Shown: piece by piece, positions 16,342 through 58,738 of the stretch
Numbering within the stretch: position 1 is the stretch's first letter
How the letters are laid out: the number at the start of each line of letters is the position of its first letter
From: Mesostigma viride
Taxonomy: Eukaryota; Streptophyta; Mesostigmatophyceae; Mesostigmatales; Mesostigmataceae
Length of the DNA: 64,000 nt
Assembly: GCA_009746045.1 (NCBI GenBank)
Contig: RPFO01000380.1
Location: 1-64,000, forward strand
Reading direction: 5' to 3'
Notes under the pieces: generated by a model
Told to the model about the DNA's origin: nothing
The model's input: the letters and a program-made list of their open reading frames with translations, nothing else
The model's database searches: none
Program-made: the position numbers and the translations under genes

Positions 16342-16762
16342 GTATTAATTAATTAATTAATTAATTAATTAATTAGAAACATAACTCCGTTGGGAGTACA
16401 TGTAGCTAGCACATATCCCGGAGAAGGGGCATATGGCCGCATACGGCAGGCTCGAGCTACCATGGTCCGGATTCTCCCGATTTCTGGCCTGCGCTGGTTG
16501 TCTCTTTGATATGGCTTTTAATACATTCTGGGCTACTTCCTGCATGCAAGAGGGGCATACGGCAGGCTCGAGCTACCATGGTCCGGATTCTCCCGATTTC
16601 TGGCCTGCGCTGGTTGTCTCTTTGATATGGCTTTTAATACATTCTGGGCTACTTCCTGCATGCAAGAGTGGAATGTATAAGCAACACTTGCTCTAGGTGC
16701 CTCAAGGGCACCGGCACCACCATGCTGTCTCAGGTTCAACCCAACTAAGGGGATCCTGGCAT
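16342..16762 (-). mobile_element. ORF1-only-type LINE 3' UTR with internal duplication
   Basis: The tail (TTAA)n lies at the left. The hairpin ACTCC/GGAGT with loop GTTG (plus-strand reading) is at 16,384-16,397, followed by the type-A 3' UTR. A segment of about 115 bp starting ACGGCAGGCTCGAGC is present twice (about 16,444 and 16,559), and part of it recurs at 57,566. The segment is absent from other type-A UTRs, so it is an insertion later duplicated. Confidence 0.7.
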
Positions 16763-16903
16763 TAAAAAATTAAATTAAATTATAACATGTCTCCGTTGGG
16801 AGATCATGTAGCACATATTCCAGGTTGGATGGGTGGTGTGGAGGAAGCCGCGTAATCGAACTAACCTAACTCTAAGCTATATCTAGTCTAAAGCCTATCT
16901 ACG

Positions 16904-17098
16904 CTACTCATCAAAACGGCTCCTCCGTTTGGGGGGAGGCGGCTTGCCCACAGGGGCTGGCGTGTGCGCCTTGACAATCTTCTTCCACCGCGTCTTGTCC
17001 TGCATGGCAGTCCAAAGACGGGAGAGAGAGTGGATGCGGTACTCAAACTGGGCTGGGACCACTAGGTCGTCCAGCAACATCTGGGTATAGGTCATGGC
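16904..17098 (-). pseudogene. LINE ORF2 C-terminal end, separated by the nested insertion
   Basis: Encodes QMLLDDLVVPAQFEYRI and TRWKKIVKAHTP, identical in order to the ORF2 end of the second copy (54,129-54,330). It ends in a Lys/Arg/Pro-rich tail. It was continuous with the RT portion before the element at 17,109-19,055 landed. Confidence 0.8.
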
Positions 17099-17108
17099 AT
17101 GTTTCCCT

Positions 17109-19055
17109 GCCACGAGCCACGAGCCACGAGCCACGAGGTAGCCATGGCTGACGGCGGAGCTCATAACTTTCACGTTTGAGCCCCAAATTCAGCTGTGAAT
17201 ATCACTATCGCTTCGTCTTTCTAAGACGCACATGCTGATATAATTTTCCGAATCTAACACGCAATATATGACGAGCAAACGTCCTTTGACGCAACGCAGT
17301 TTGGCGGATGCGCTCGCCCATGAAAATGCGGCAGCTTCGGCTGCAGCTTCGCCATCAGGTCCGGCAGGCAGCGGTGACACTAGTCGTGCACTGGTAGCCA
17401 CCCAGCAACCTCCCGGGCTTAAAGCCTCGCCATCGGCATCGCCTGACCCGAAACGCACCCGCCCAGCCGACAAAACAGGATGGTCCCGCCCCTCGGAACC
17501 GCGCTTTCGGTTCCACCCTTTCAAGGTCGATGACCACGACTGGAACAACATGTCTCCTGAGGATGCTATGGACTGCATCTTCTTCGGGGACTACGCCTCG
17601 CTTTACGACCTGTGCCTCCATCTCTCCGACCAAGGTCGCCTCCTCTGCAGCAACGGCAGCCCCTGGCTAGCCTCCGGCGCCATGCTTGGCTGCTCCCGCC
17701 CCGAACTCCAGCACGTCGTCCTCAACTCCCTTCTCCAGCGCTCTGACGGCGAGATCTGGGCTCCATCCATCTCCGCCCCCACACTCCGTTCCATCCTGAC
17801 GGAAGCCTTTCAGCAGCACGTGACCCCCCTTGCTGCCGACATTTCAGCAATCGGCGGCACGCTGACTGCTGAACTTCCTCACATTTCCACCGCCGCCGCC
17901 TCCACCTCCACCGCCGTTTCCGCCTTCACTGCCGACATCAAAGCCCAGCTCTTCGACGTCGACCAACGCCTTCAAGCCACCGCCACCGCCCTTGAGAGCT
18001 TGCATGACACCGCCGGCCTCACCGCCCAAGCGGTGCAGGAAATCGCTGCCCAGCCGGCACCTGCTGGCCCGGCCAGTGATGTTCCCTCCACCTGGGCGGA
18101 CTTGCTTAAGCAGCACACCACCTCCACCACCTCCACCATCTCGGCACAACTAAAGCAACAAGCCCTCGACCTTCGCGAGGAAACCGACATCGCCCGGCGC
18201 AGCCACAATGTCATCGTCAAGCACTTCGACCAGCCGGCAGGTGAGACCTCCACGGGCCTTCTTGAGGCATTTAAGCGCGACATTCTTGCCCCCATGCTAC
18301 TCGCTGGTGAGCTGGACGTGTCGGCTGTCCGCCTCCCCCGCGCGCGGGGGAAGGCTGGCCCGGCACCCGTGCTCCTCACCTTTAAGTACATGGCGGACAA
18401 GCTGTCGTTCCTTAAATGCCGCAAGAAGCTCTCGAGGACTCGCTTCACGCTGGACGACGACTTGACCCTGGCTCAGCAACAGCGGCGACGCGAGCTATGG
18501 CCGACCTACCTTCAGCTCCGGCACAGCGCAGGGGGGAAGCCGGTATACTGGAGGGGGGCGGTCATCCACGTTGACCACAAGCCCTGGCAGCCCCCTCCTG
18601 CCACCCCAGACTAGGGAATTCATACCAGTAGTGTAGATTAGTCAGGCTTAGCCTAGCATGTGGCCCACGCGCATGTGCGCCCATAATGGCCCCCATGGAT
18701 GTTGTCTACAGAATTTAGCCAAGCCCTGCCTATAACGGGACCCCCATGGATGTTGCATTAAGAATTGAGCCATGCTATGCCATGCAGAGAGATGCTCTCT
18801 GTCGAGAAGCCATGTCCTAGCTCTTGTATAGCCATGATGATCTTCCTCCCTCACAGGCATGCTCCCCCCTTACCCGGGCATAGCGTGATAGACCATGAGG
18901 GTGCAGGTGCCCTGGTGCACCTAGAGCAGGGGTAGCTTACATTCCCACCCTTGCATGAAGTAGCCTAGAATGTATGATAGGCCATATGCCCCTTCTCTGG
19001 GCTATGTGCTACATATACTCCCAACGGAGTTATGTTACAATTCAATTCAATTCAA
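17109..19055 (+). mobile_element. ORF1-only (half-LINE) element, copy 1, nested in LINE copy 1
   Basis: Starts after a CCACGAG mini-repeat and GGCTGACGGCGGAGCTCA, a 5' motif also seen at 24,914, 27,375 and 29,798. It carries a 5' leader, an intact ORF1, a 440-bp 3' UTR, the hairpin ACTCC/GGAGT (19,017-19,030) and an (AATTC)n tail. The 10-bp duplication ATGTTTCCCT flanks it (17,099-17,108 and 19,055-19,064), and the two halves of the host LINE rejoin across it. Its 3' UTR retains TGTATAGCCATGATGATCTT, the leader of ORF2 in LINE copy 1. ORF2 itself is gone. Confidence 0.88.
17268..18614 (+). CDS. LINE ORF1 protein, intact, 448 aa
   Basis: The N-terminal 80 residues are Ala/Ser/Pro-rich and probably disordered. 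A globular part follows (HDWNNMSPEDAMDCIFFGDY), then a long Ala/Thr/Gln-rich heptad-like stretch (about 180-300) likely to trimerise as a coiled coil. An RRM-like domain of the L1 ORF1p type (about 315-440) begins NVIVKHF, has [18 protein letters not shown], then [15 protein letters not shown] and a final [15 protein letters not shown]. In L1-type elements this protein coats the RNA and acts as a nucleic-acid chaperone. The intact frame, with a near-identical intact sister at 35,735-37,084, points to recent amplification. Confidence 0.88.
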   Translation: MTSKRPLTQRSLADALAHENAAASAAASPSGPAGSGDTSRALVATQQPPGLKASPSASPDPKRTRPADKTGWSRPSEPRFRFHPFKVDDHDWNNMSPEDAMDCIFFGDYASLYDLCLHLSDQGRLLCSNGSPWLASGAMLGCSRPELQHVVLNSLLQRSDGEIWAPSISAPTLRSILTEAFQQHVTPLAADISAIGGTLTAELPHISTAAASTSTAVSAFTADIKAQLFDVDQRLQATATALESLHDTAGLTAQAVQEIAAQPAPAGPASDVPSTWADLLKQHTTSTTSTISAQLKQQALDLREETDIARRSHNVIVKHFDQPAGETSTGLLEAFKRDILAPMLLAGELDVSAVRLPRARGKAGPAPVLLTFKYMADKLSFLKCRKKLSRTRFTLDDDLTLAQQQRRRELWPTYLQLRHSAGGKPVYWRGAVIHVDHKPWQPPPATPD

Positions 19056-20650
19056 TGTTTCCCTACCTTTTTAGGAAGGTTCTTGGGGCCAGGCCAGGTC
19101 AAAATGTGCCGCCCCGGTTGGCCGAGCCGCTGGGGACCGGCCAGACCAAGGGCGGTGTCGACCTGGCTGGTGCGAGCAAGATGTCCTACAAATGCTATCC
19201 TACGCTGTCTAATCTCGTCCGAAATACGCGGCATACCGTGATACAAAGACTCTAAGGACCTACGCTGAGAAAACCCGACATTCAGGACCTGTCGGAGCAT
19301 CCGGGTTACCGTGCCGTCTAGCTTGGCTGCCAGTGTTGCCGTGAGTGTCCACGCCTCGGCGCCATACGTGAGCACCGTGAGGACGAGGACCTTGAAGAGC
19401 ATGCGCTTGCGGTGCTCGTCCAGGCCCTTGGAGCGCCAGTAGGTGTTGAGCGAACGGAGCTTGGCCCAGGAAAGGCCGATGCGGGTGTCCACATCGTCGG
19501 CAGTGTCCGGAAGCCAACTCCCCAACAGCTTGAAGCGGTCGCGGAGTGGGACCTCCGTCCCGTCTAGCAGGCGCGGCAGCGGTGGGCGACTGGAGGCCCC
19601 AATCACCATCGCCTCAGTTTTGACACTAATCTCCAACCCCACCGCCCTCGCCTCCAGGCCCAGACAGTCCAGCCAGGTCTGAATGTGCTCGGGGCGCGCG
19701 ATGAGGGTGGTGTCGTCCGCATAAATCAGGTCAGCCAGGCGGTAACCCGTGCTAACCCCGCCGTGCCCACGCTCGTTAAGGATGTCCAAGCCTGGCTCGA
19801 ACCCCTTAAGAGCAGTAAAGCGCGCACGTGCCTGGCGCATGACGTGGTCCACGACAATAATGAACAGGTATGGAGACAGGACACAACCTTGCCACACCCC
19901 GTGGTGAAGGGGGAATGGTGGGGTGGTGCCTTCCGCAGTCCGCACTACTGCCTGTGAGCCCTCATACAGTCGGCGAATGGCAGCAATAAACGCTGGTGGC
20001 ACGCGGTCCAGAGCTAGGATGGCCCAAAGAGCCTCCCAGAGGACCGTGTCAAAGGCCTTGATATAGTCAACAAAAATGAGGACCAGCGGCAAACTGTCAG
20101 GGGGAAGGCGACGCACCTCCTCCATCAACCGGCGCGCGACAAACACAGCCATGACAGTGTTACGACCACTACGGAAACCCATCTGAGACTCACCCAGGTG
20201 TGGGTCCAGCGCGGCGCGGAGCCTGTGCAGCATCATGCGCATGAAGACCTTCAGCGCGGCGCTCTGGAGGCAGACACCCCGGTAGTTACCGGGGTCAGCA
20301 GCAGAGCCCTTCTTGTACAGCATGACGCGGATGGCCGTCTGCCACTCAGCAGGCGGAGGCTCGTCAGAGAGCAGGACACGGTTGCAGAACGCCAGCAGAA
20401 GATCCCTAACCGCCAGATCAGGGGTCTTCAGCAGCTCAGCAGAAAGGTGGTCGGCACCGACCGCCGCATCGTACCGCAGGCGAGCAAGGGCGCCGTCCAA
20501 TTCCTCCAAAGTGAAGGGGTGGACGACGTCGTTGGTGGCAAGGCAGCCCTCCTTCAAGGCGGGGACTTGGTAGTCCGCGGCCGAGGAGGGGGGCGCTGGC
20601 GGCGGCGGGGGTCCGGCGACCCCGAGGCGGGCGGCCGTCTCGGGGTGAAG
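19056..20650 (-). CDS. LINE ORF2, reverse transcriptase portion
   Basis: Continues ORF2 one frame over. Counting from the Met at 20,557, palm motif A (VDYIKAFDTV) is at residues 163-172, motif B (HHGVWQGCVLSPYLF) near 218-232 and the catalytic YADD at 279-282. They are followed by a thumb and a conserved C-terminal region (LTYGAEAWTLT, IRQRRIAFVGHLAR). All catalytic residues are present. The frame is cut after KKVGKH where a plus-strand ORF1-only element inserted; the missing C-terminus is found beyond it at 16,904-17,098. RT was probably functional before the nested insertion and the poly-C indel. Confidence 0.85.
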
Positions 20651-22362
20651 CGGCGGGGGGGGGCGCGAGCCCCACCGGTCAAGGAAACATTGTGGGCCAA
20701 CCAGCGGTCAAGGCTTACCGGCGCCGTGCCGTCCCCCGTGTGCTCCACCGGGGTGCGCTGCCGCCGGCCGCCGAGCCGGTCGAGGTGGTACCACATGTCC
20801 TTGCCCTGGTTGCGAGCCTGGCAGGCCTTGGCATCCGCGATGCACTGGGCCGCCTCCGCGTCCTGAGCGTGCTCGTAGGCCTCCACAAGGGCGGCCTTGA
20901 GCAATGGTTTCTGCAGCGGGTCCCGGTTACGCTTGAGGCGGTGCCGGGCGGCCAAGACCTTGGGGTCCTGGCGGTAGAGCGGGCCGGGGCGGCGGCGGGG
21001 CATGACCGGCAGGTGCCGGGCCGCCAGCAACGGGGCACGGGCCGCAAAGCCCGCAAAAATGGCTGCGTTGGGGGCACCATTGTCCAGCTCGTCGACGTCC
21101 GCCCGGGCGTCCAGTGCCGACAGGTACTTCCGTCGGCACCAGTTCCGCTCGTGCTCGGCGTCCGTCCAGTCCTCAGGATCTCCCTTGACCGGACGTAGAG
21201 CAGACCAGTCAGGGCGGACCACTGGGGCGCGGCGCGCGGGGACGTGGAACCGGAGCCGAAGGGTCGCGCGCACCAACCGGTGGTCAGAGCACACCGTGGG
21301 CGTGTCAAACACTCGGGTGTCCAGAACCGAGGTACACCTGGGCTGCCGTACCACCACGTAGTCCAGACAGGCCTGACGGCCGTTAGGGCCACGAAAAGTG
21401 ACCAAGTCCTGGGAGGGACGTTGGAAGTGGCAGTTGACAGCAACCATCCCGCTATCCCGCAAAAAGGCAGAAAACAGGGGAGTGTTGTCATTAGCAGCAG
21501 TGTCAGCAGGCGCAAAGCGACTGCCAGCAGTACCCACGGGGAGCGTGGCATTGGCGTCTAGCAGCATAACCAAAAAGTGGCGGGCCGGGGTGGCCCCCTC
21601 AAGGCTATGCAAGTCCTCGAAGAACTTCTGGCGTTCCAACGCAGGTAGACCACTATGGGGTGCGTAGCCCACCCCCACCGTGAGGTGGTGTTTAGACCGC
21701 CCCTCGACGGAGGTGAAGTGTGCTACCATAAGGCGTGGCGTTAGAAACTTAAGCGTGCTGAGGCTAGCAACTGCCAGCGGCGAACACAAAAGACCAACAC
21801 CACCTTGGCCAGACGTACCGCTGCCAGCAAAGTAAAACCTCCAGCCACCCGCCAAGCGAGCAGTGCTCACCATGCCAAGTGGCACCGTGCGGCGGTGTTC
21901 CTGGACGCCTAATATAGATACACGATGCTCAATGCAGAATGCGACTAGCTCCTCTACCCGGCAGCTATGGTCGTCATCTAGCAGTGTGCGGGTGTTAAAA
22001 GTGGCAAGGGCCAAGGATGCCTGCTGGCCCACCAGGGGAGGACGACGATGGATGATGGGGGTGGATGCGGCGGGGGGTGGAGGTGGGGGTGAAACGGAGG
22101 GGGGAAGTGAAGCGGTAGAAATAGTGCTTTTCATCGCATTTATTTTGTCCTGCAAGCGTAGGATGCGAGCCTGCCGCTTGCTCGGGGTATTCGGGGTTGG
22201 GGCTGATTGCACAACGCCGAGGCGTAGGTAATCGAGCAAACGTTGGGTTTTACGAATCTGACATTTGACAGATGAGGTTGTGGCCCGAAATACCGGCACC
22301 ACCATGGCTTTCACCCGACGGTTAGGTCGAGGCATCCTGGCATGGGCGAGGGATCCTGGCAT
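20554..22362 (-). CDS. LINE ORF2, AP-endonuclease portion
   Basis: A frame of 602 codons. After a basic and proline-rich leader, an exonuclease-endonuclease-phosphatase fold carries the expected motifs: ATFNTRTL (Asn123), QEHR (Glu155), LLDANA (Asp269, Asn271), CLDYVVV (Asp334) and SDHRL (Ser359-Asp360-His361). This domain nicks target DNA to prime reverse transcription. The frame leaves the RT frame at a run of nine C (20,655-20,663 on the plus strand as G), so the last 40 or so residues are out-of-frame. Otherwise the domain looks complete. Confidence 0.85.
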   Translation of the reverse strand: MPGSLAHARMPRPNRRVKAMVVPVFRATTSSVKCQIRKTQRLLDYLRLGVVQSAPTPNTPSKRQARILRLQDKINAMKSTISTASLPPSVSPPPPPPAASTPIIHRRPPLVGQQASLALATFNTRTLLDDDHSCRVEELVAFCIEHRVSILGVQEHRRTVPLGMVSTARLAGGWRFYFAGSGTSGQGGVGLLCSPLAVASLSTLKFLTPRLMVAHFTSVEGRSKHHLTVGVGYAPHSGLPALERQKFFEDLHSLEGATPARHFLVMLLDANATLPVGTAGSRFAPADTAANDNTPLFSAFLRDSGMVAVNCHFQRPSQDLVTFRGPNGRQACLDYVVVRQPRCTSVLDTRVFDTPTVCSDHRLVRATLRLRFHVPARRAPVVRPDWSALRPVKGDPEDWTDAEHERNWCRRKYLSALDARADVDELDNGAPNAAIFAGFAARAPLLAARHLPVMPRRRPGPLYRQDPKVLAARHRLKRNRDPLQKPLLKAALVEAYEHAQDAEAAQCIADAKACQARNQGKDMWYHLDRLGGRRQRTPVEHTGDGTAPVSLDRWLAHNVSLTGGARAPPRRFTPRRPPASGSPDPRRRQRPPPRPRTTKSPP

Positions 22363-24237: not shown

Positions 24238-24600
24238 ATTCCTGGACGCATGCAGATCCAACGTCGTGGAAGGACTAGGGTTATAGTATGTTGATGATCA
24301 TCTCAAGTGAGACAAATCAGCCAGCCATGGTTTTAACGTACACAGCCATAATATGCATTTGCACCGGCCTCCACTCATTTTCGTATAGTCGATCCTGAGC
24401 GGCTTGCTACCTCGACAAACGCGGATAAGTGCAGCACGGCCACTGTCCGGATTCTCTGCAGATCTCTGGTTCGTTGTACGTCTAGGATTTTATACTCGTG
24501 CTCGATCCCGTTGGGGCGTTACGGAGCGAGCATCATTATCCCCGATGCTGCGCGCTACAGATACTCCCAACGGAGTTATGTTTCTAATTAATTAATTATT
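24238..24600 (+). mobile_element. LINE 3' UTR fragment with ACTCC/GGAGT hairpin
   Basis: Plus-strand 3' end: hairpin at 24,563-24,576 and a TAATTAATTAATT tail. Upstream at 24,238-24,290 is the word TTCCTGGACGCATG ... CGTGGAAGGACTA, which recurs near 33,535, 34,300, 35,130 and 38,735. Confidence 0.6.
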
Positions 24601-24900: not shown

Positions 24901-24913
24901 GCTAAAATGGCTT

Positions 24914-26025
24914 CAACGGCGGTATGGCTGACGGCGGAGCTCAGATCTTTTGCGTCTGAGCCCCAAATTCAGTCAGATCCGACTTGCATTCTGACACGCC
25001 TTTTTAAGACGCACTCGCCAGCATAATAATCGGTTATGGCTGTTCAAAACGTAGTATCGAAAAAGAAGAAACCCTGCCACGGTCGCAAATGGAGCCATTT
25101 CCTTCCATTGAGCCACGACTCCTTTTTTTCGATCCCCGTCAATGGATGGCCCTGACGAAGAAAAAATGCGGCGAAATAGTCAAGTTCTTAGCACAGGAAC
25201 GCAAGCTCCTCGGGCCCGGCGGGCCCATACACGCCGACGTGCACACCCTTCACCTCGCTATCCTGCATGCAGCTATACTTCCAGCGCTCCCTGAAGACGA
25301 CATCGCCGCTAAGCTCTGCACCCCATGCATGGGCCGCAGCCCGGCCTGCTCAGCCGGCAGCCACATGATTCGGCTCCCTCCCTCTGCAAGGATGACGTCC
25401 GAGCAGCTATAGTGCTGGAGGAGCACGTGACCTGGCCCGCGTTGGTCGAGAAGCTGACCCCGCTGAACACGACGCTCAACACGGTAGAGGCCCGGGTCTC
25501 CATGCAACGTGGTGGAAACCAAGGTCACGTCCACAATCCAATTACCTCAGTTCACTGAAGACCTTCGCCAGGCACAACAACGGGAGGCCACCGAGCGCGC
25601 CCGCCGCGACTGCCGGGTGGTGCTTCGCCGCTGCCCCCATGGGATCTGCAGATCGAAGCCAGGTGAGACCTCAACCACCCTTGCCGACGAGCTCAAGGAC
25701 CAGCTCCTTATACCCTCATGGGCCTGGTACGTATGTAAGGTAGAACTGCGTGGCCGGTGCCACCGCCTTCCCCACTCACGGGACTAAGGCGGCTCCCCCA
25801 CCACTGATCGAGCTAGTCCTGCTCACCTTCCCCTCCCCTGAGGACAAGCAGCGGTTCATCTCTCGTCGCAAGCGGTTGCACGACCATGCACACCTGGACG
25901 CTGGATGACGACAGCTGACCCCTGCTCAGCATGCAGCAGCACAGCGACGTGACCTGCATGTGGCCGGAATACCTATAGAGCTGCCACAACAAGCAGGACC
26001 CCCAGAAGCCCAAGGTGTACTGTAC
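24914..26025 (+). pseudogene. divergent ORF1 relic, plus strand
   Basis: Begins with the shared 5' motif GGCTGACGGCGGAGCTCAGA, leader, and an ORF1-like reading broken by several stops and frame changes. Recognisable words are EIVKFLAQERK and GPIHADVHTLHLAIL near the start and DKQRFISRRKRLHD and PPEAQGVL near the end (about 25,840-26,020). The last two align with the RRM-like block of the intact ORF1. It represents a second ORF1 subfamily, also seen in the next two relics. Confidence 0.65.
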
Positions 26026-26044
26026 CGATGTGGGTGCTGCAAGG

Positions 26045-27375
26045 CTGCGCAGGCCGGGCTGGTTTAATTGCGGAGAATAGTAGCGACGAGGTCGTCGCCA
26101 GTTAGCTAACTTATAGCTTGAAGAAGCTGAAAAGGATGGCAAGGCGGTGGTTGAATTCTGGCAGGGCGAGGAACTCCTCCACTTTGTCGGCGTGGATATG
26201 GGCCCATCGGGCCCATGCATGCACCGGGGCTAGGTGTTCCTGTGCGTAATACTGGACTATCTCGGCGCATTCTGCGTCGGTCTGGTGCAGCAAGCCGCGG
26301 AAAGAGAAGCTTGCGTAGTAGTCTAGCTGGGAACTGTCGCCATTTGCATTTGTCATATATATAGCATGGTTTCTTGGGCTCTGGCGAGGCGCTTGGCGAT
26401 GGGTTTGCTGGCGGTGGGTTGGCGGGCCCAGACGACTGGGAAATTAACCCCTCCACCGTCTCTGCCCTCGTGACTAAAATGAGTCATGAGTTGCACAATA
26501 TTATGCCACATGTGGCCCCATTCAGCCTAATTATTTTTTCTAGACCATACTAGGAACCATGCAAGCATAACCATATTATAGGGCCCACCTGGGGGTATAG
26601 TGTGTGGTCCCAGTGCTAGGCCCCCCTGCTCTATAAATAGCTCCCCCCCTCAGGGGGATACGGTGAGTGTGCGCGGTGCATGCATGACACCCTTATTATG
26701 ATGGATGGTAGACCCCCGTTTCCTCGATGTGTTGACCCTGGGGTTGGATTTGTAGATAGATTTTTTAGTTAGGATGGGATACAAACACTAAAAGTTGTAA
26801 CTGCCCCAGCTAGGGACCCATCAGCTGGTGCTAAAAATAACTGGGTTTTTTCCCTACTCAGACAGCGGTGCACCAGGGTACCCCAGCCAGTACCCCCTTG
26901 AGTTTGACCAGGGCTTCCACCCTAGCTGATACGATGGTCAAATACCGTCAGACAAGTGTCCTACGGATAGAGTGAATCTAGATCTTTTCGGTGGTCTAGC
27001 TAGTTGGTTCCCGCCAAAACCTTCCCGCCAAATCCCCACAGGGCGCACAAACTCGTGCATGCAGAACGTGAGGCATGAGAAAGACTCGAAGTCGAAAATC
27101 GGCACGAGGACAGTTGAGGGGTTAAGGACGATGGCGAGTGGGTTGGGCTGGGAGCCAGAAAGCTCCTTTTCCAAACCTCGTTTTGCTTTTGGGGTCGTCA
27201 TAGCTGCTTGTCACGTGCGTAACTTTGTTTGCCGATACTGCGTAAACTTCCGATGCATATAATCGATTAAGTACTGGCGAGTGCGTCTTAAAAGGCCGCG
27301 CGTCGAATGCAAGTGCATGGTCTGACCGAATCTGGGGCTCAGACGCAAAGGATCTGAGCTCCGCTGTCAGCCATT
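26045..27375 (-). pseudogene. divergent ORF1 relic, minus strand, interrupted
   Basis: The 5' end is at about 27,375 (inverse of the GGCTGACnGCGGAGCTCAGA motif). An N-terminal ORF1 stretch (26,356-26,111) encodes SSQLDYYASFSFRG and DAECAEIVQYYAQEH. The leader is interrupted at about 26,443-27,110 by unrelated DNA containing two E2F-like words (TTCCCGCCAAAA and TTCCCGCCAAAT, 27,008-27,033). The C-terminal part is missing; it abuts the plus-strand relic tail to tail at about 26,040. Confidence 0.6.
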
Positions 27376-27640
27376 AATTCATTAATTAAACTCGTGCTCC
27401 CGTTGGGGAGTCACGGAGCACCGAAGTGCTTTTAATCCCTGCATGTGCAACATTGCAACAGGAAGAAAGCACTGTTGGCAGAGACCCCCTTTCTCCTTCA
27501 TGCGGCATGCCTTCGAGGCATGCCACAGCGGCAATCGGACACGCCATAGACGATCCGGCAAGCCAGTGCTGTGGGTGCAATAAGAACCATGTGAGCATAT
27601 TCTGATTTGGCACGCCGCAAGGGTGAAAACCATTTGCGTT
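27376..27640 (-). mobile_element. LINE 3' end, CTCCC/GGGAG hairpin (type B)
   Basis: AATTA-rich tail, then CGTG-CTCCC, loop GTTG, GGGAG, one unpaired T and CACG (27,393-27,415), then a 3' UTR with AGAGACCCCCTTTCTCC that recurs inverted at 31,140 and 58,760. It sits directly against the 5' end of the neighbouring relic, in the same orientation. Confidence 0.7.
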
Positions 27641-28089
27641 CAGTGCCGGTCCACGGAAAACGCGGGAAAACGCTATCTGCAAATGAATCCAGGCTGGAAT
27701 CGAACTGGGGACCTCTCGCACCAATTTTGCTGACTATAGGACGGACGTCTCCGGATCCTATAAGGCATGCATCGCCAACTGACACCTACAGTCATCCGCA
27801 AAAGTTCTCCTTTCCGGGGAGTGCATGATGCAAGCCTTTCGGATTTGGTACTAGATAAATCATTCGAGATCTGTGTGTAGGAGTACGACACACGTGTCTG
27901 CACTCAATAACAAGTAGCGTGGGCAAGTACGTAAGCTGATCATAGCCAGGACGTAGCATGGCTGTACTTAAGGGCTAAGCTGAGGCTATGGCTGGTTGTG
28001 TACCGCCGGTGTGTTAGCGGTGCACTTGACTAGGTATGGTGGCACAGCTAGGCAAACACTCTATATAGGCATGGCTGCCATAGCGGCAG
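27641..28089. other. unassigned spacer
   Basis: No gene is seen. The minus strand has one GTTCGATTCC word (near 27,692) resembling a Pol III B box, but no tRNA fold surrounds it. Confidence 0.35.
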
Positions 28090-29800
28090 TGACTACCAAT
28101 GGATACAACAAGCTAGGGCTAATATTACAAGCTATTCTAGCCCGCTGGGGGCGTCCACAGTCTTGTCCCCGCCCCTCCAGTACACCTTGGGCTTCTGGGG
28201 GTCCTGCTTGTGGCAGAGGTAAATATTCCGGCCACAGGTCACATCGCTGCATGCTGCTGCTGTGCACATGAGCGGGGGTCAGGTCGTCGTCCAGCGTCCA
28301 GGTGAGGTCGTGCAACCTCTTGCGACGAGAAAGGAACCGCCGCTTGTCCTCAGCTAGGAGAGGGGAAGGTGAGCAGGACTGCATGGTGGGGGAGCTAGCC
28401 GCCTTGTCCCGTGATCGAGTGGGGAAGGCGGTGGCACCCGCGCAGTTCTACCGCACCTACCGGGCCCATGAGCGGGTGAGAACTAGCTGGTCGATCCTTA
28501 ATTGAGCTCGTCGGCAAGGGTGGTTGACGTCTCACCTGGCTTCTGGGGGAAACGACGCAGCACCACTTGAGTGCTCGGCGCACTCGCGGCGAGCGCGGTC
28601 GGTGGCCTCCCGTTGTTCGGCCTGGCGGTGGTCCTCCAGCTCCTGGAGCTTCGTGGCGATGGCGTCGGTGGTTGAGGCGGTCGCTGACCGCAGCAGGTCC
28701 GCATAGGAGAGCGGGGGGAGGTCGCCAGCATCCTGCCGGGTTGGCTGGGATGCTATGGTGGCCGTCTGCTCCGCTAGATCTTTGGGACCTGTTGTGTGGC
28801 CAGAGCCTCGGTGTGGGCAGTGATGGCGCTTCAAGCTTCTTCATGAGCACGCCACACTCTTGCGCCCTCCACCTGGTTGAGGCGGGAGAGGAGTGCATGC
28901 AGCATGTGCCTCGGATGCCTGCGCCGTGGTCTGCAGCGCCGTGCATGAGCTGAGGTTGTAGCTTAATTGTGTGCGACCTTGGTTTCCGTATTGGAGACCT
29001 TGCTTGGCCTCCACCGTGTTGAGCGCTGTAGTCATCAAACGTCATCTTCTCGGCCAGCGCGGCCAGGTCACATGCTCCTCCAGCACTGCTCGGAGGTCAT
29101 CCTTGCAGAGGGAGGCAGGCGGTGTGGCTGCCGGCTGCGCAGGCCGGGCTGGGTTGCGGAGCCGAGCGTCGAGGTCACGTGCAGTGAGCTTGTCATAGAA
29201 GCTGAAGAGGATCGATGGCGAGGCGATGGTGGAATTCTGGCAGGGCGAGGAACTCCTCCACCTTGTCGGCGGGGATGGGCCCATAATTGGGCCCACGGAG
29301 CTTGTGTTCCCGTGCGTAGTAATGCACTAGTTATATCTCGGTGCAGTGTGCGTCGGTCAGTCGCAGCCAGCCGCTGACCGTAGTAAAGCTTGCGTATATA
29401 GTCTAAGTACTGTCGCCATTTGTTTGATTCGTAGCAGAATTTCTTGGGCTCTGGCGAGGCCGGGGCTCAAGGTGATCTGGGTTTGCTGGCGGTGGGTTTG
29501 CGGGCCCAGTCGACTGCATGGGCAAGGATGATGGCGAGTATAGTCCCGTTTTCTAGCGTGGGTTGGGCAGGGAGCCGGAAAGCTCCGTTTCCAAACCTCA
29601 TTTTGCTTTTGGAGTCCTCATAGCTGCTTGTCACGAGCTGCTTTTGGAGTCGATACTGCGTTTCAGCCGTAACCGATTATACTGGCGAGTGCGTCTTAAA
29701 AAGGCGCGTCGAATGCAAGTGGTCTGACCGAATTTGGGGCTTGAGCAGACGCAAAAGATCTGAACTCCGCCGTCAGCCATACCGCCGTCAGCCATTATTT
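28090..29800 (-). pseudogene. divergent ORF1 relic, minus strand, nearly full length
   Basis: The 5' motif (inverse of GGCTGACGGCGGAGTTCAGA) lies at about 29,760-29,798. The ORF1 N-terminus is at about 29,400-29,050, the middle at 28,830-28,500 (YADLLRSATASTTDAIATKL, similar in character to the coiled-coil region), and the C-terminus at 28,384-28,100 with DKRRFLSRRKRLHDLTWTLD and DLWPEYLPLPQ. Multiple stops and frame changes. It is the most complete member of the second ORF1 subfamily here. Confidence 0.65.
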
Positions 29801-30844: not shown

Positions 30845-31020
30845 TAAATAATTAATTAATGATTTAATTAGGAACATTATTAACTCCGTTGGGAGTATAT
30901 GTAGTACATATCCCGGAGAAGGTGCATATGGCTTTTAATACATTCTGGGCTACTTCCTGCAAGGGTGGGGATGTCAACGACACTTGCTCTAGGTGCACCA
31001 AGGGCACCTGCACCACCATG
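30845..31020 (-). mobile_element. type-A LINE 3' UTR fragment
   Basis: AATTA tail, hairpin ACTCC/GGAGT (30,883-30,896), then GCATATGGCTTTTAATACATTCTGG-like UTR through TGCTCTAGGTGCAC. It matches the 3' UTRs at 16,342 and 35,294. Just beyond, 31,045-31,095 carries three copies of GTGGAAGTGCTGTTGG. Confidence 0.7.
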
Positions 31021-31659: not shown

Positions 31660-33378
31660 CAGAGTGAGATCGTACGTTATACGCGTTATACGGTCACGGT
31701 GGAGTATAATGTATAATACGGTATAATACGGTATAATACGGTATTATACGTTTTCGTACGGACACACTCAGAATACTCTGATTTTACACATTTTAAGACA
31801 CCCACCATCAATCCACATGTTTTTAACACTGTTTTGGACATAATCCAAGGTTGCCCTACCCTCGGCTATACTCTATACGGTGGATATTGTGGACACGATC
31901 GATGTATTGCATGTAATACTGAGAATGTAAACGTGCGCATGCATAATTGTGTGTATGTGTATATATGTGGCTTTATATTGGTTATGTTTACTTGGGTGCC
32001 TTCACTTTGATGCAAGTAATTATATATTTTAATATATATATGTGGCTGTGCATGCACGCAAATACTACAGTAGTATACAATTAATGCATGTAGTATGTTT
32101 GCATGGTGCGATGCTATGTGAATATACTGAGCTTCATGTGACTACAGGTGTGTGACTCGTGGTGTGCATTAATTAATTAATTAACTGAATTAATTAATTA
32201 ATATCTCGTGTCCCCGTTGGGGAACCACGGAGGCTAAACAGGTGGGGATGTGATAAGTAACTCACATATTCTCACCTTCCATACAACAACCTTGTTTTCC
32301 AGCAGGCTGAAGAGCATGACAGGCGTCTATGAGCTCGCCAGCTCCTTGCAACGGTGATGCCGCTCCCAGGCAGCTAGGGTCCTTGACTACGCAATATAGA
32401 ATGTCTACCGTGTGAAAACCTCCATACAGGAAGCGTAGCAAAGCCAGATAACTGCCCGATCAATTCTGGGTAGCTTTAGGAAGCATGGCATACGCAGCGT
32501 AAGGAAAACCATTGAAAGCTGCGGAAAATCTGATAGCACAACTGCAACAAGTGGAGAACAAAATAGCAAGAAAAACCCAGAAACGGCGCAAAAAGTTTCA
32601 TGCCAGGTTCATTAAGAGCGCAAACAGACTGGGCGGTGACATGCGGCAAATCAACGTACCACGGCCGGCATTATTTCCTACCCAGGCGCGCAAGAAAAGC
32701 CAGCCAGCCATGGATGGATTAACCGCGGATCGCGCAGGCCTGAACGAAATCATTTTAGAAATGACAGGAAATGGCCGCAGATCGAAGATGCTTAGGTTAT
32801 TTTCATGGTGTCCGTTACTAAACGGCTCTTGCTGCATCAAAATAACCCACGAATGTCGAGTTCTACCGTCGCAGGCACACATGCTAGATTATTCATCGCG
32901 GCCAAATTGACGTTGGATGAGACCCCCGTGCAAATCTGTACCAACAAAGGCAGCGAATTTGCAAATAGTGCAGATCTTGCTATGAAACATCATAATAGAA
33001 CATCACTTTTAACCATCGGCTTAATTTTTTCGCCTGTCGCCCGCCGGATTAGCCATATTTTAACGGAACGCACGTCGCCATGGCCACCTCCGCACGGTGC
33101 GCGCACTGTGCACCACAATGTCAAAATAAGATCGCGTCGAATTGTGAAAGTTCAGACGGGTCAGTACTTAGTACAGATACGAAATCTGTGGCTTCAAATC
33201 GTTGCCCTGTCGTTCTGGCATCCTAGCCGCGCAAAACGTAAAAAAAACGCGGAAAACACGGTATTATACGTCATTATGCGCTAAAACGTATTACGTATGA
33301 AAAATTATACGCTAAAAGCCAGCGTATTACGTATTATACCGTATTATACCGTATTATACGGCGTATGATCTCACACTG
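31660..33378. mobile_element. hAT-like DNA transposon, non-autonomous, 1,719 bp
   Basis: The 8-bp target duplication GTCGGCGG flanks it (31,652-31,659 and 33,379-33,386). Terminal inverted repeats of 17 bp (CAGAGTGAGATCGTACG against CAGTGTGAGATCATACG) differ at two positions and start with the CAGNG typical of hAT. Subterminal arrays of TATAATACGG (31,712-31,742) and the inverse (about 33,330-33,360) resemble transposase-binding repeats. Longest internal frame: 32,512-32,910 (132 aa, Lys/Arg-rich), with no hATC or zinc-finger motif that I can see. The class rests on TIR and duplication length. Confidence 0.78.
32168..32260 (-). mobile_element. LINE 3' end with TCCCC/GGGGA hairpin inside the hAT element
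   Basis: Repeated TTAATTAA tail, CGTG, TCCCC, GTT, GGGGA and CACG (32,207-32,229). A LINE fragment therefore inserted into, or was captured by, the DNA transposon. Confidence 0.65.
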
Positions 33379-33572: not shown

Positions 33573-34298
33573 TTAATTAATTAATTAATTAGACTCGTGC
33601 TCCCGTTGGGGAGTCACGGAGCATTAACCCCGATGGATGGATGGATGGATGGATGGGTGCAAACAGTCCTACCGGTCTAATCTATCTACAAAAACTATCT
33701 ATATCTTCATCTATCAACTCAAGCTACAAACATCAACTCTACCCTAGGGGACCTGTCTGGCTTGCAGGTTTGCACACGCAGGCGCTTCCCCACGGGGGGG
33801 GGGCTCGTTGTCCTCTATGACCTGGGCCCACTTGGCCTTGTCCATCATCTTTTTCCAAATCACGGATAGGCCTAGGCCCCCCATGTCCTCTACTAGCTGT
33901 TCTTTGAAGGTGCCGGGCCTTGCGTCGTCTAGCATCACGGGGCCCGGCCCATGTCAGGAGGTGCCGGCCAGGCTGAGCTGGGCGCAGTCCCGCGGGGGGG
34001 CCACGTGAGGTGTCTATCTGGTTGGTGCGAGCTAGGTGCCCTACGAGCTGCAGGCGTCGCTGCTTAATTAATGGTGCTGGAGATATATGGCATGCCAAGG
34101 TACAGGTCCTCATTGCGGACATGAGCAGCATATCCTACTCTGAAAATGGATCGCAGCATGTTGGTGACCGTGCCGTCCAGCTTGCGGGCCGGCCAGGTCG
34201 GCGGTGAGGGTCCACGTCTCGGCCCCATACGTAAGAACAGGAAGGACGAGGACCTTAAACAGGTCCTGTTTCTCGATCTTGCCCAAGGGCTTGCGCCT
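33573..34298 (-). mobile_element. type-B LINE, 5'-truncated, with target duplication
   Basis: Tail (AATTA)n, hairpin CTCCC/GGGAG (33,600-33,613), (GGAT)5, UTR, then decayed ORF2 end. One frame encodes WKKMMDKAKWAQVIEDNEPP (about 33,840-33,780), another RLQLVGHLARTNQIDTS and LTYGAETWTLTADL near 34,220-34,240. The duplication CGCCGTGGAA is at 33,563-33,572 and 34,299-34,308. The filled and empty forms of the target word can be compared with 24,270-24,290. Confidence 0.78.
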
Positions 34299-34308
34299 CG
34301 CCGTGGAA

Positions 34309-35030
34309 GGACTAGGGTACCTAGTTGTCTGATCTCGAGGAACTTTAGATCGACGCAAAGACCGCGGGCCGGCTCCAGCCTAAACTAACAAACCGGGGGT
34401 TATGCCACGTATAGCAGACCTGTAGTGCACCTAGTTCTAGCGGTATGACACCAGGATTTCTTCCCACGATGCCGTGACACGCCTCTTCCCCACTGTTTGG
34501 GGGTCGTTGCATTCCTCTACCGCAACCTGGGCCCAGATGGCCTTGTTCTGCATCTTTTTCCATATGTAACACGGAGAGGCCCCGCGGCCTTTTCTCCCCA
34601 CGGGCCCCGCGGCCCGCTGCTAGCCAGGGTAGAAGTCCGCAGGTGGAGGTTATTGGTCCTGAGGATAGCCGCTACACTACCGCCTCGTCTGCCATTACAG
34701 TAGAGGACAGCTCGGATGAGGATTACATCCCCATCTAGTGCTTAACGGTTGGGGGATGATGCAGACGATATTTGTTTAAACTTTTGTGTAATTTTTTTTC
34801 TAATGAGATTAGCATCTAGTACTCCGTGGCATGCCTTTGCGCATGACACGCAAGTACTTACTTACGGAGAGGCCTGAGCCCCTCATGTCCTCTTCTAGCG
34901 CTGCTCCTTGAACGTGCGGGCAGCCCGGCGTGGACCAGATTGCTGGGCCCGTCCACACGTAAGGAGGTGCCTACCCGGCTGTGCGGGCCGCAGCCCTGCT
35001 GTTGGGCCTCGCGACAAGTCTAGCTGGTTG
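34309..35030 (-). mobile_element. scrambled LINE RT-end relics
   Basis: Short blocks match the ORF2 end of type-B elements (TTCTGCATCTTTTTCCATAT near 34,546; CTGAGCCCCTCATGTCCTCTT near 34,875). The plus strand at 34,640-34,738 has a short acidic reading ending EDSSDEDYIPI and a stop, of unknown origin. Confidence 0.45.
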
Positions 35031-35075
35031 GTGCTCCGTGGTCCCCCAACGGGGACACGAGACTTCTAATAATAT
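35030..35075 (+). mobile_element. LINE 3' end, TCCCC/GGGGA hairpin
   Basis: CCGTGG, TCCCC, CAAC, GGGGA, CACGAG (35,036-35,060) and an AT-rich tail. Plus-strand orientation. Confidence 0.6.
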
Positions 35076-35293
35076 AAGTCATTAGCTGGTTGGTGCGGGC
35101 CACGCGCCCGACTAGCTCTAATCTAAAACTACCATAGTCCTTCCACGACGTTGGAACGCCATTAATTAATTAAACTCGTGCTCCCGTTGGGGAGTCATGG
35201 AGCATTAGCCATTAATTATACCGATGGATGGATGGATGGATGGATGGATGGATGGATGGATGGATGGATGGATGGATGGATGGATGGATGGAT

Positions 35294-53547: not shown

Positions 53548-53559
53548 AATCATGGGTAT

Positions 53560-53729
53560 TAAATTAAACTAAATTAAATTATAACATGCCTCCGTGGGGA
53601 GGTCATGTAGCACATATTTCATGATGGATGGGGTGGAGGAAGCCGCGTGATCGAACTATCCTAACTCTATCTAGAAAATCCTAACTGCACTACTCATCAA
53701 AACGCCTCCTCCGCTTGGGGGGTATGGAC
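53560..53729 (-). mobile_element. very short LINE insertion (3' end only)
   Basis: (TTAAA)n tail, CCTCC/GGAGG hairpin (53,589-53,602) and the last 120 bp of the LINE, same as 54,030-54,165. The target duplication AATCATGGGTAT is at 53,548-53,559 and 53,730-53,741. Extreme 5' truncation is a hallmark of target-primed reverse transcription. Confidence 0.85.
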
Positions 53730-53759
53730 AATCATGGGTATGGACTATGGAAGCCTGCA

Positions 53760-53880: not shown

Positions 53881-54128
53881 GCAAGCCACTGACATGCAAG
53901 TGGGCTGATCTGTGAGTTGTAATGGGCCCATCCGATGGCCAGGTGGCCAGTATATCCCGGATCGAGAAGCTCTTTAATTGCAGTTAATTAAACGCGGAAC
54001 AACGTACAACGTATATTAAAATTAAATTAAATTAAATTATAACATGCCTCCGTGGGGAGGTCATGTAGCACATATTTCATGATGGATGGGGTGGAGGAAG
54101 CCGCGTGATCGAACTATCCTAACTCTAT

Positions 54129-55950
54129 CTAGAAAATCCTAACTACACTACTCATCAAACGCCTCCTCCGCTTGGGGGGAGGTGGCTTGCCCACAGGGTC
54201 GGGCGTGTGCGCCTTGACAATCTTCTTCCACCGCGTCTTGTCCTGCATGGCAGTCCAAAGACGGGAGAGAGAGTGGATGCGGTGCTCAAACTGGGCTGGG
54301 ACCACTAGGTCGTCCAGCAACATCTGAACGTAGTAATTGGTGACAGGTTTCCCTACCCTTTTGGGAATGTCCGCGGGGCCAGGCCAGGTCAGAATGTGCC
54401 GCCCTGGCTGGCCAAGCCGCTGGGGGCCGGCCAGACCAAGGGTGGTGGACATCGACCTGGCTGGTGCGGGCAAGCGGTGTCATACAAATGCTATCCTACG
54501 CTGCCTAATCTCGTCCGAAACACGAGGCATGCCATGATACAAAGACTCTGATGACGGACGCTCGGAAAAACCTACGGACCTGTCGGAGCATCCTGTAAAC
54601 TGTGCCGTCGAGCCGAGCTGCCAGTTTGGGTGGGAGGGTCCACGCCCCGGCGCCATACGTGAGCACCGTGAGGACGAGGACCTTGAAGAGCATGCGCTTG
54701 CGGTGCCCGTCCAGGCCCTTCGAGCGCCAGTAGGGTGTGAGCGAACGGAGCTTGGCCCAGGCAAGGCCGATGCGGGTGTCCACATCGTCGGCGGTGTCAG
54801 GAAGCCAGCTCCCCAACAGCTTGAAGCGGTCGCGGAACGGGACCTCCGTCCCATCGAGCAGGCGCGGCAGCGGTGGTTTACTGGATGCCCCTATCACCAT
54901 CGCCTCAGATTTGACACTAATCTCCAGCCCCACCGCCCGCGCCTCCAGGCCCAGGCAGTCCAGCCAGGTCTGAATGTGCTCGGGGCGCGCGATGAGGGTG
55001 GTATCATCCGCATAAATCAGGTCGGCAAGGCGGTCACCAGGTCTAACCCCGCCGTGCTCTTTCACGTTAAGGATGTCCAAGCCTGGCTCGAACCCCTTAA
55101 GAGCAGTAAAGCGTGCACGTGACTGGCGCATGACGTGGTCCACGACAATAATGAACAGGTATGGGGACAGGACACAACCTTGCCACCGACACCCCGTGGT
55201 GAAGGGGGCCGGAATGGTGGAGTGGTGCCCTCCGCAGTCCGCACTACTGCCTGTGAGCCCTCATACAGTCGGCGAATGGCAGCAATAAACGCAGGTGGTA
55301 CCCGATCCAGAGCTAGGATGGCCCAAAGAGCCTCCCAGAGAACCGTGTCAAAGGCCTTGATATAGTCAACAAAAATGAAGACCAGCGGCAAACTGTCAGC
55401 TAGGGGGAAGTCGACGCACCTCCTCCATCAACCGGCGCGCGACAAACACAGCCATGACAGTGTTACGACCACGACGGAAACCCATCTGAGACTCACCCAG
55501 GTGTGGGTCCAGCGCGGCGCGGAGCCTGTGCAGCATCATGCGCATGAAGACCTTCAGCGCGGCGCTCTGGAGGCAGACACCCCGGTAGTTGCCGGGGTCA
55601 GCAGCAGAGCCCTTCTTGTACAGCATGACGCGGATGGCCGTCTGCCACTCAGCAGGCGGAGGCTCGTCAGAGAGCAGGACACGGTTGCAGAACGCCAGCA
55701 GAAGATCCCTAACCGCCAGATCAGGGGTCTTCCGAGCAGCTCAGCAGAAAGGTGGTCGGCACCGACCGCCGCATCGTACCGCAGGCGAGCAAGGGCGCCG
55801 TCCAATTCCTTCAGAGTGAAGGGGGGGACGACGTCGTCAGTGGCAAGGCAGCCCTCCTGCAAGGCGGGGACTTGGTAGTCCGCGGCCGAGGAGGGGGGCG
55901 CTGGTGGCGGCGGGGGTCCGGCGACCCCGAGGCGGGCGGCCGTCTCGAGG
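54129..55950 (-). pseudogene. LINE copy 2 reverse transcriptase, frameshifted
   Basis: Same protein as 19,056-20,650 of copy 1, with YADDTTL near 55,015, FVDYIKAFDTVLW near 55,365 and GHLAR. Indels near 55,400, 55,190, 54,600 and 54,470 break the frame. Where readable, identity to copy 1 is very high. The end encodes TRWKKIVKAHTP and a Lys/Pro tail. Confidence 0.82.
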
Positions 55951-55989
55951 TGAAGCGGCGGGGGGGGGGGCGCGAGCCCCACCGGTCAA

Positions 55990-57044
55990 GGAAACATTGT
56001 GGGCCAACCAGCGGTCAAGGCTGACCGGCGCCGTGCCGTCCCCCGTGTGCTCCACCGGGGTGCGCTGCCGCCGGTCGCCGATCGAGCCGACCGGTCGAGG
56101 TGGTACCACATGTCCTTGCCCTGGTTGCGAGCCTGGCAGGCCTTGGCATCCGCGATGCACTGGGCCGCCTCCGCGTCCTGAGCGTGCTCGTAGGCCGCCA
56201 CGAGGGCGGCCTTGCGCACTGGTTTCTGCAGCGGGTCCCGGTTACGCTTGAGGCGGTGCCGGGCGGCCAAGACCTTGGGGTCCTGGCGGTAGAGCGGGCC
56301 GGGGCGGCGGCGGGGCATGACCGGCAGGTGCCGGGCCGCCAGCAACGGGGGCACGGGCCGCAAAGCCCGCAAAAATGGCTGCGTTGGGGGCACCCTTGTC
56401 CAGCTCGTCGACGTCCGCCCGGGCGTCCAGGGCCGACAGGTACTCCTTTCGGCACCTGTTGCGCTCGTGCTCGGCGTCCGTCCAGTCCTCAGGATCTCCC
56501 TTGACCGGACGTAGAGCAGACCAGTCAGGGCGGACCAGTGCGGCGCGGCGCGCGGGGACGTGGAACCGGAGCCGAAGGGTCGCGCGCACCAGTTACCGGT
56601 GGTCAGAGCACACCGTGGGCCGCGTGTCAAACACTCGGGCGTCCAGAACCGAGGTGCACCTGGGCTGCCATACCACCACGTAGTCCAGACAGGCCTGCCG
56701 GCCGTTAGGGCCACGAAAGGTAACCAAGTCCTGTGAGGGATGTTGGAATTGGCAGTTGACAGCAACCATCCCGCTATCCCGCAAAAAGGCAGAGAAAAGG
56801 GGAGTGTTGGCGTTAGCTTCCGTGTCAGCAGGCGCAAAGCGACTGCCAGCAGTGCCCACGGGGAGCGTGGCATTGGCGTCGAGCAGCATAACCAAAAAGT
56901 GGCGGGCCGGAGTGACCCCCTCAAGGTTATGCAAGGATTCGAAGAACTCACGGGCCGACTCAGGTAGACCACTGTGGGGTGCGTAGCCCACCCCCACCGT
57001 GAGGTGGTGTTTAGACCGCCCCTCGACAGAAGTGAAATGTGCTG
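55990..57044 (-). pseudogene. LINE copy 2 endonuclease, truncated and frameshifted
   Basis: Contains LLDANA (near 56,880), CLDYVVV and SDHR (near 56,600), split by indels near 56,600 and 56,350. The first 200 residues of the domain are missing through 5' truncation. At the junction with RT the C run is 11 long (G run at 55,960-55,970) against nine in copy 1. Confidence 0.82.
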
Positions 57045-57169: not shown

Positions 57170-57290
57170 AATTAATTAATGAATTAATTAATTAATTAGG
57201 AACATAACTCCGTTGGGAGTATCTGTAGCACATAGCCCTTGAGAAGGGGCATATGGCCTATAATATCATGGCATGGCTAACGTGATGACT
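57170..57290 (-). mobile_element. type-A LINE 3' UTR fragment
   Basis: AATTA tail, hairpin ACTCC/GGAGT (57,207-57,220), then GTAGCACATAGCCC and GGGGCATATGGCCTAT. The rest of the element is missing. 57,291-57,545 has nothing recognisable. Confidence 0.65.
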
Positions 57291-57545: not shown

Positions 57546-57690
57546 CGAAAACGCGGAAAAGATAACGGCAGGCTCGAGCTACCATGGTCCGGATTCTCCC
57601 GATTTCTGGCCTGCGCTGGTTGTCTCTTTGATATAATATATTCTAAGCTACTTCCTGCAATGGTGGGAATGTAAACAACACTTGCATGCT
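57546..57690 (-). mobile_element. type-A UTR piece with the ACGGCAGGCTCGAGC insert
   Basis: Third copy of the segment of about 70 bp duplicated near 16,444 and 16,559, followed by TTCTAAGCTACTTCCTGCAA of the type-A UTR. Confidence 0.6.
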
Positions 57691-57829
57691 CTAATTAATT
57701 AATTAATTAATTAATTAGACTCGTGCTCCCGTTGGGGAGTCACGGAGCATTAACCCCGATGGATGGATGGATGGATGGATGGGTGCAAACAGTCCTACCG
57801 CATGCATATGCATGCAGTCCTACCGCATT
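57691..57829 (-). mobile_element. type-B LINE 3' end
   Basis: (AATT)n tail, hairpin CTCCC/GGGAG (57,726-57,739), (GGAT)5 and GGGTGCAAACAGTCCTACCG. Truncated at once. Confidence 0.72.
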
Positions 57830-57985
57830 AATTAATTAATTAATTAATTAATTAGACTCGTGCTCCCGTTGGGGAGTCACGGAGCATTAACCCCGATGGA
57901 TGGATGGATGGGTGCAAACATTCCTACCGGTCTAATCTATCTACATTGGCGACATACTACACTGACTGTCCTACCGCATGCTCTA
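57830..57985 (-). mobile_element. type-B LINE 3' end, second tandem copy
   Basis: Same as the preceding copy, with the hairpin at 57,863-57,876 and (GGAT)4. It continues a little further into the UTR. The two copies are in the same orientation, about 137 bp apart. Confidence 0.72.
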
Positions 57986-58165
57986 GGTCAAGGGATTCTC
58001 ACCTTCTTCCATGTCAAAAGTTCTTGAGTATGGCGTTGATCGAGGCTGCGCTTGGCAAGCTCGGCCTCCTCGCGGAGGTCAAGCGTCTGCCGCTGGAGCT
58101 GGGCTGCGACGGCGGAGGTGGTGGAGGTGGTGTGTTGCTTAAGCATGTCCGCCCAGGTCGTGGCC
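57986..58165 (-). pseudogene. ORF1 fragment
   Basis: Encodes [20 protein letters not shown] and LREEAELAKRSL, matching the relic at 37,557-38,291. About 60 codons, truncated on both sides. Confidence 0.75.
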
Positions 58166-58611
58166 TCTAGAATATGCATGTTGCATACGTACGTTGTTCT
58201 AGCATGCTAGATTGCCAAGATCATTTAGGGCGCAGATCCTGGAGACTCTTGGCTATGGTGAGCCTTCCTTTCTTGGTGGACAGTGCCATGGATCGATTTC
58301 TGCAACTTGATCCAGTGCAGATCAATCATCTCTTGTTGTGTAGATCAATGAGTTGACCATTGTCACGTATTAATTGCCTAGCCGTGCCACCATACCTAGT
58401 CACACGTGCACCGCTAACGCACGGTACACAACCAGCCTTAGCCTTAGCTTAGCCCTTAATGTACAGCCATGCATGCTAGCTAGCTACGTCCTGGCTATGA
58501 TCAGCTTACTTGCCCACGCTCCTAGTTATGATATGCTCACATGGGTCTTATTGCACCCACAGAACTTGCCAGATCGTCTATCGTGTCCGATTGCTGCTGT
58601 GGCATGCCTCT

Positions 58612-58738
58612 GGCTTAGAGTTAGATTAGTTCCTAGAATTAGGTTTCGCGGCTTCGCCCACCTCCATCCATCCAGCAAGGGAATATGTGCTACATGATCT
58701 CCCATGCAACGGAGTCATGTTTTAATTTAATTTTTAAT
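58612..58738 (+). mobile_element. LINE 3' end, plus strand
   Basis: Inverse orientation of the LINE 3' UTR at 54,030-54,140: TTCGCGGCTTCGCCCACCTCCATCC-like, GTGCTACATGATCTCC, a loop enlarged by four bases, GGAGTCATGT and a TTTAATTTAATTTTT tail. Confidence 0.65.

Follow-up and report, generated by a model that had tools for sequence, protein, structure and literature searches.

A covarying 3' hairpin at the ends of RTE-like LINEs and ORF1-only elements in Mesostigma viride

Why should mobile elements of different kinds end in the same small hairpin? The question is raised by a 64,000-nucleotide stretch of Mesostigma viride DNA (contig RPFO01000380.1; here 'the window', meaning the whole stretch analysed), in which the original prediction held that at least fifteen 3' ends of elements resembling long interspersed nuclear elements (LINEs) fold alike. 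The hairpin is real: an outer stem of 5 bp, a single unpaired base on the 5' side, an inner stem of 5 bp and a loop of 4 nt. A covariance model (25 positions, 10 pairs), partly built from window copies, finds 19 matches between 16111 and 58720, with expectation values (E) of 6.6e-08 to 0.0036 and no weaker window match up to E = 10. The model derives from 22 hand-chosen variants, 16 of the 38 available having been omitted, most of them apparently decayed. We regard it as a signal that looks functional; its kind is known, its arrangement new.

The predicted CAAC loop is present in most copies, the departures being CCAC at 53584 and 54042 and enlarged loops at 16111 and 58692. The inner stems ACTCC/GGAGT, TCTCC/GGAGA, CCTCC/GGAGG, CTCCC/GGGAG and TCCCC/GGGGA were recovered as described, GTCCC/GGGAC occurs only in the enlarged-loop copy at 16111, and the proposed GCG/CGC outer stem is absent from the model matches; beyond the window there are further pair types, for example ACATC/GATGT and ACAGA/TCTGT. 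The exact core CTCCCAACGGAG occurs 13,688 times (6808 + 6880) in the 440-Mb genome, against 21 occurrences (12 + 9) of its reversed control, a density of about 31 per Mb with which the single model match in five 10-kb stretches picked by place (L009-L013) is consistent. A model-free test found 11 CAAC hairpins of 5+1+4 form in the window, where 18 of 20 Markov-simulated windows had none and two had one. This form by itself is unspecific (82 in the window with all loops, Markov mean 20.2); loop and stem together are specific. A GTAC loop accounts for 28 of the window's 5+1+4 hairpins, most presumably from a satellite at 61.9-64.0 kb. Fold z-scores are -3.2 to -3.7 for seven of the eight copies tested and -1.15 for 32206-32230. 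In a scan of hairpins adjoining AATT tails, the loop was CAAC in 67 of 78 and CCAC in 4; the reversed-sequence control of that scan is invalid, because reversed complementary copies retain the hairpin.

At least two AATT, AATTT or AATTC units lie within 34 nt 3' of 77 of 90 matches (52 sources), as expected of hairpins that adjoin short repeats at element 3' ends. The figure for the 5' side is 3 of 90, and that for random 34-mers 169 of 5000. The 3' flank is AT-rich in 84 of the 90, on which ground a host-gene reading was set aside. Target-site duplications, surveyed with two of 81 hairpins left out for short flanks, bound copies of many sizes: E1, an ORF1-only element of 1.94 kb; copies of a LINE lineage, LINE-A, three of which in the window have duplications of 13, 11 and 12 nt; and near-minimal insertions of hairpin and tail with little else (24548-24603 and, judged by eye, L064). 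Elements are also nested, LINE-A within an element of the ORF1-only family ORF1-A and E1 within LINE-A in the window, and again LINE-A within an ORF1-A element, with a 7-nt repeat, at locus L029. Duplications, 5'-truncated copies and a repeat tail at the 3' end, hallmarks of target-primed insertion, are all present.

E1 is a complete mobile unit with an ORF1 and no ORF2. Its duplication (17099-17111 / 19055-19067) is identical at 12 of 13 positions, and the 3' version of its 13-mer target occurs once in an uninterrupted LINE-A copy (L029+L056), an empty site; the prediction that ORF1-only elements carry the hairpin thus stands. ORF1 is unrecognised by Pfam and PDB sequence searches, and all 44 relatives found are jgi/Mesvir1 predicted proteins. 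Its structure model consists of a long helix, a strand-helix-strand-strand-helix-strand unit, and a helix with two strands, and the five best rows of a structural search are human LINE-1 ORF1p. As modelled, ORF1 is an L1-type ORF1p with coiled coil, RNA recognition motif (RRM) and C-terminal domain; the mean predicted local distance difference test score is 55, and the fold match therefore rests mainly on the RRM part.

The ORF2 of LINE-A carries an endonuclease (PF03372) and a reverse transcriptase (RT; PF00078), a domain pair not specific to RTE. Together with a C-terminal region that resembles RTE-type proteins, this likens the element to LINEs of the RTE clade, which typically have a single main ORF and no long ORF1. 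In the RT tree the C-terminal region is common to ORF2, P0005-P0009 and P0011, the last named CFDP2, which we take to be an RTE label; the references are short and support is low. Three jgi/Mesvir1 predicted proteins are 90-98% identical to the RT piece of ORF2, over 47-59% of the piece.

Two classes of hairpin, A and B, have the CAAC loop. Class C, CACGTGAC-GCA-GTCACGTG, is a separate hairpin with the loop GCA, found by searching freely for perfect hairpins next to AATT tails; it occurs at 8 places in 7 loci (L001, L007, L018, L019, L040, L054, L068) and was not seen in the window. Most L-numbered loci were fetched by the exact class A core, so class A is over-represented among copies. LINE-A copies, whose ORF2 identities are 44-98% in best local matches, end in class A2, the tail usually being (AATTT)n, and class A1 ends ORF1-A elements, with tails of (AATTC)n or (TAAT)n; the A1 25-mer had no match in a scan of viral contigs, a set that may omit the window's own genome. 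Class B ends LINE-B, a second ORF2 lineage (L045, L055, L002, L005 and window 33608) about 53% identical to LINE-A in the C-terminal region, and also ORF1-B elements. Class C is found at the ends of a third ORF2 lineage (L054, L007) and of a single ORF1-C element (L001). Each class ends one lineage encoding endonuclease and RT and one ORF1-only lineage, with few copies of B and C, and class sorts with lineage, class A alone being well sampled. From ORF1 end to hairpin the distance is 395-475 nt in 21 of 24 A1 copies, 380 and 382 nt in class B (L008, L050) and 378 nt in class C (L001); from ORF2 end to hairpin, 17 of 20 A2 copies have 85-174 nt, the five B copies 130-160 nt and the two C copies 92 and 259 nt.

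The idea of one signal serving several families survives in that the hairpin ends unlike elements, ORF1-only ones included, and has to be amended in that classes A and B and the distinct C sort with lineage. Nor, within families, are the untranslated region (UTR) bodies dissimilar apart from the hairpin, as had been proposed: ORF1-A elements have a common 3' UTR (73-100% in local matches), and LINE-A copies have another (66-100%). ORF1-A and ORF1-B elements begin with about 49 nt in common (GGCTGACGGCGGAGCTCA...; window 17144-17192, 24924-24972, 29730-29796, 27374-27259) and therefore match at both ends. The hairpin at L052 +705 (694-718) was rejected as an ordinary A2/ORF2 end and reads as a chimera, possibly a template switch, in which an ORF2-A fragment is fused to the class A1 3' end of an ORF1-A element; it is still tallied as A2/ORF2 in the class-lineage counts.

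Changes in the stem were followed in 69 sources (205,039 nt), which gave 108 matches at E <=0.1, 53 of them distinct; the overlapping loci L004 and L021 and, in this sample, L046 were left out. The first inner pair shows all six standard types, with 7 of 53 rows unpaired, and the outer pair next to the inner stem shows GC, AU, UG, GU and CG, with 3 of 53 unpaired. Within the ORF1-A family (29 hairpins with the typical ORF1-A 3' UTR motif upstream), pair 5-21 is altered on both sides five times and never broken. Where TCTCC is followed by GGAGT (L019), the predicted fold shifts the unpaired base by one and retains ten pairs. The compensatory covariation originally described is thus found across families and inside ORF1-A.

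It is likely that these are stringent LINEs. We consider it probable that the hairpin and the AAUU-type repeat are the 3' recognition and priming signal of RTE-like LINEs of that kind and that ORF1-only elements of the same class are moved in trans. In the ZfL2 LINEs of zebrafish, recognition is specific for the loop, whereas the stem can be exchanged while it still pairs (PMC4176376); a steady loop, a covarying stem and a repetitive tail in Mesostigma agree with this. We infer binding by ORF2, class-specific recognition and trans-mobilisation. The ORF2 protein of each lineage, an apurinic endonuclease with RT, would read its own hairpin class on the RNA; target-primed reverse transcription would begin in the repeat tail, and copying would pass through the hairpin toward the 5' end, frequently halting early. 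Matched ORF1-only elements, with their L1-type ORF1 protein, fit mobilisation in trans by whichever ORF2 lineage shares their class.

Several observations weigh against this reading. In 18 of 52 distinct rows the outermost bases do not pair; six pairs show two-sided changes, a number equalled by 165 of 500 shuffles, and the further pair types are equalled by 36 of 500. When column pairs are ranked, non-stem pairs stand at ranks 2 and 5-11, which we read as family structure, and six stem pairs rank from 19 to 139, some of them low because those pairs are invariant. The model to which the alignment was fitted came from hand-chosen variants, and inner-pair variation in class A is under-sampled because of the way in which most loci were fetched. 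Duplications of at least 13 nt number 1, with a swapped-flank null of 1.3 that is inflated by family sequence. The ORF1-B evidence consists of L008, L050 and window 27405 (797 nt away), and that for ORF1-C of L001; a class B 'ORF1' at window 57871, one of three class B ORF1 counts, proved to be a stray ORF1-A fragment. The A1 and A2 hairpins are unlike, so that the class A match is one of loop and form rather than identity.

A tentative alternative for one part, compatible with RT recognition, is that the ORF1-only elements arose from bicistronic LINEs by deletion, having inherited their class from full LINEs that own an ORF1. The precedent is HAL1 (half-L1), a mobile unit encoding ORF1p alone (PMC5753468), although HAL1 comes from L1, a relaxed, poly(A)-reading LINE, and is not hairpin-matched (PMC3747384). 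In the LINE-A copy L029+L056, a 246-nt leader (L056:2926-3174, minus strand) codes for a peptide terminating 27 codons upstream of the ORF2 ATG, perhaps the tail of a preceding ORF; a search of predicted proteins of 325-1034 aa gave it no match, and by eye it does not resemble ORF1-A. Of the LINE-A copies seen, the two longest, both with duplications, begin 14 and 246 nt upstream of that ATG and lack ORF1-A, the longer leader being unexplained, and the ORF1-A and LINE-A 3' UTRs differ, as the distances given above indicate. More doubtful is a split LINE system, with an ORF2-only RT and the RNA-binding ORF1 protein on separate, mutually dependent elements, the hairpin class as the address of the pair, and three such pairs in one alga.

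That the hairpin signals transcription termination or RNA 3'-end formation, the RT reading the AAUU tail alone, seems quite improbable. The hairpin does lie directly 5' of the tail, and such a signal would need pairing too; yet a host-wide signal need not differ by LINE lineage, whereas among ORF1 and ORF2 elements alike the class follows the lineage, and no Rfam family reaches its gathering score anywhere in the window. An old common 3' UTR sequence kept by descent without present function would explain why UTRs are related within a class, but is highly implausible given two-sided, pair-keeping changes within ORF1-A and across families under a constant loop and form.

For stringent recognition, the proposed parallel with LINEs such as UnaL2 holds for a covarying 3' hairpin at the ends of unlike elements, and by analogy with ZfL2 it would extend to recognition by the RT. 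Like the L2-clade stringent LINEs (UnaL2, ZfL2-1, ZfL2-2), the Mesostigma elements have a 3' stem-loop and then short repeats (PMC4176376), and the hairpin is common to LINEs and non-autonomous partners, a trait of stringent LINEs. Unlike UnaL2 and ZfL2, the RT is RTE-like and one genome has several hairpin classes, each with ORF1-only elements. The plant L1 lineage ME1 and monocot short interspersed nuclear elements (SINEs) described by Ohshima likewise have a 3' hairpin with compensatory changes in unlike elements, but belong to the L1 clade and have a UCU loop and a CGAG flank (PMC3747384); a CGAG 3' of the stem occurs in class B too and may be coincidental. The RTE clade has known LINE-SINE tail pairs (PMC4176376), and the portions of the RTE literature searched describe no covarying CAAC hairpin. 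Mesostigma is among the earliest-diverging streptophytes (PMC7027972), with a genome rich in transposable elements, of which long terminal repeat elements are the largest class and LINEs are listed (PMC6947507). Ohshima asked of L1 whether early green-plant LINEs used stringent recognition (PMC3747384), a question on which a high-copy covarying 3' signal in Mesostigma bears. Three hairpin classes with matched ORF1-only elements are natural swaps, from which it might be learned which RNA features the RT reads and whether ORF1p acts in trans. Window features are collected in Table 1.

Table 1. Hairpins and associated elements in the window
Feature	Position	Strand	Evidence and remarks
Class B-like hairpin, enlarged loop GTCCC..GGGAC, AT-rich tail	16111..16139	+	Covariance model, E 3.1e-4
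Class A1 hairpin ending interrupted ORF1-A element	16379..16403	-	Covariance model
Interrupted ORF1-A element	22685-22350 + 16762 to repeat tail ~16344	-	ORF1-A matches flank the LINE-A insertion on both sides
LINE-A copy 1, ORF2 endonuclease and RT in two frames	16763..22349	-	PF03372 5.2e-06, PF00078 1.8e-23; in 3' UTR of the ORF1-A element, itself split by E1; 13-nt duplication ATGCCAGGATCCC at 22350-22362 and 16750-16762
Class A2 hairpin of LINE-A copy 1, then (AATTT)n tail	16785..16809	-	Best covariance-model match
E1, complete ORF1-only element	17112..19054	+	5' UTR, ORF1 17268-18614, 3' UTR, hairpin, (AATTC)n tail
Class A1 hairpin of E1	19011..19035	+	Covariance model
Class A1 hairpin in minimal insertion 24548-24603	24557..24581	+	13-nt duplication ATTATCCCCGATG at 24535-24547, 24604-24616
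ORF1-B element, 5' part	24924..26100	+	First 49 nt 90% to E1; body related to 29796-28178
ORF1-B element, class B hairpin 27392-27416	27385..29797	-	ORF1 match 29-31%; inserted at 5' end of another ORF1-B; duplication TAATGGCTGACRGCGG, 15/16, judged by eye
Class A1 hairpin, degraded	30874..30902	-	Covariance model, E 0.0036
Class B-like hairpin TTCCC/GGGGA	32206..32230	-	Covariance model
LINE-B 3' part, ORF2-B C-terminal region, class B hairpin 33595-33619	33590..34400 (upper bound approximate)	-	Local matches to the C-terminal region of LINE-A RT, 51-63% aa identity
Class B-like hairpin TCCCC/GGGGA	35036..35060	+	Covariance model
Class B hairpin	35176..35200	-	Covariance model
E2, ORF1-A element, hairpin 35318-35342	35297..37138	-	92% to E1 over 1852 columns
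E3, partial ORF1-A element, hairpin 38690-38714	37573..38736	+	73% to E1 over 1186 columns
LINE-A copy 3, 5'-truncated, hairpin 53584-53608, loop CCAC	53560..53728	-	Duplication ATACCCATGATT
LINE-A copy 2, 5'-truncated, hairpin 54042-54066, loop CCAC	54017..57043	-	92.8% to copy 1; duplication ATATACGTTGT
Class A1 hairpin	57202..57226	-	Covariance model
Class B hairpin	57721..57745	-	Covariance model
Class B hairpin, insertion with duplication ATGCGGTAGGAC	57858..57882	-	Covariance model
Class A2 hairpin, enlarged loop, LINE-A remnant	58692..58720	+	E 1.8e-4; LINE-A 3' match 58613-58733

Elsewhere the window holds a CTCA repeat of 1.7 kb with 98% matches (14169-15875), a weak kinesin motor match below the Pfam cut-off (46987-47799, plus strand), an (ACACCCT)n array that is telomere-like in appearance only (61461-61530) and a satellite with a 40-nt unit (61907-63996).

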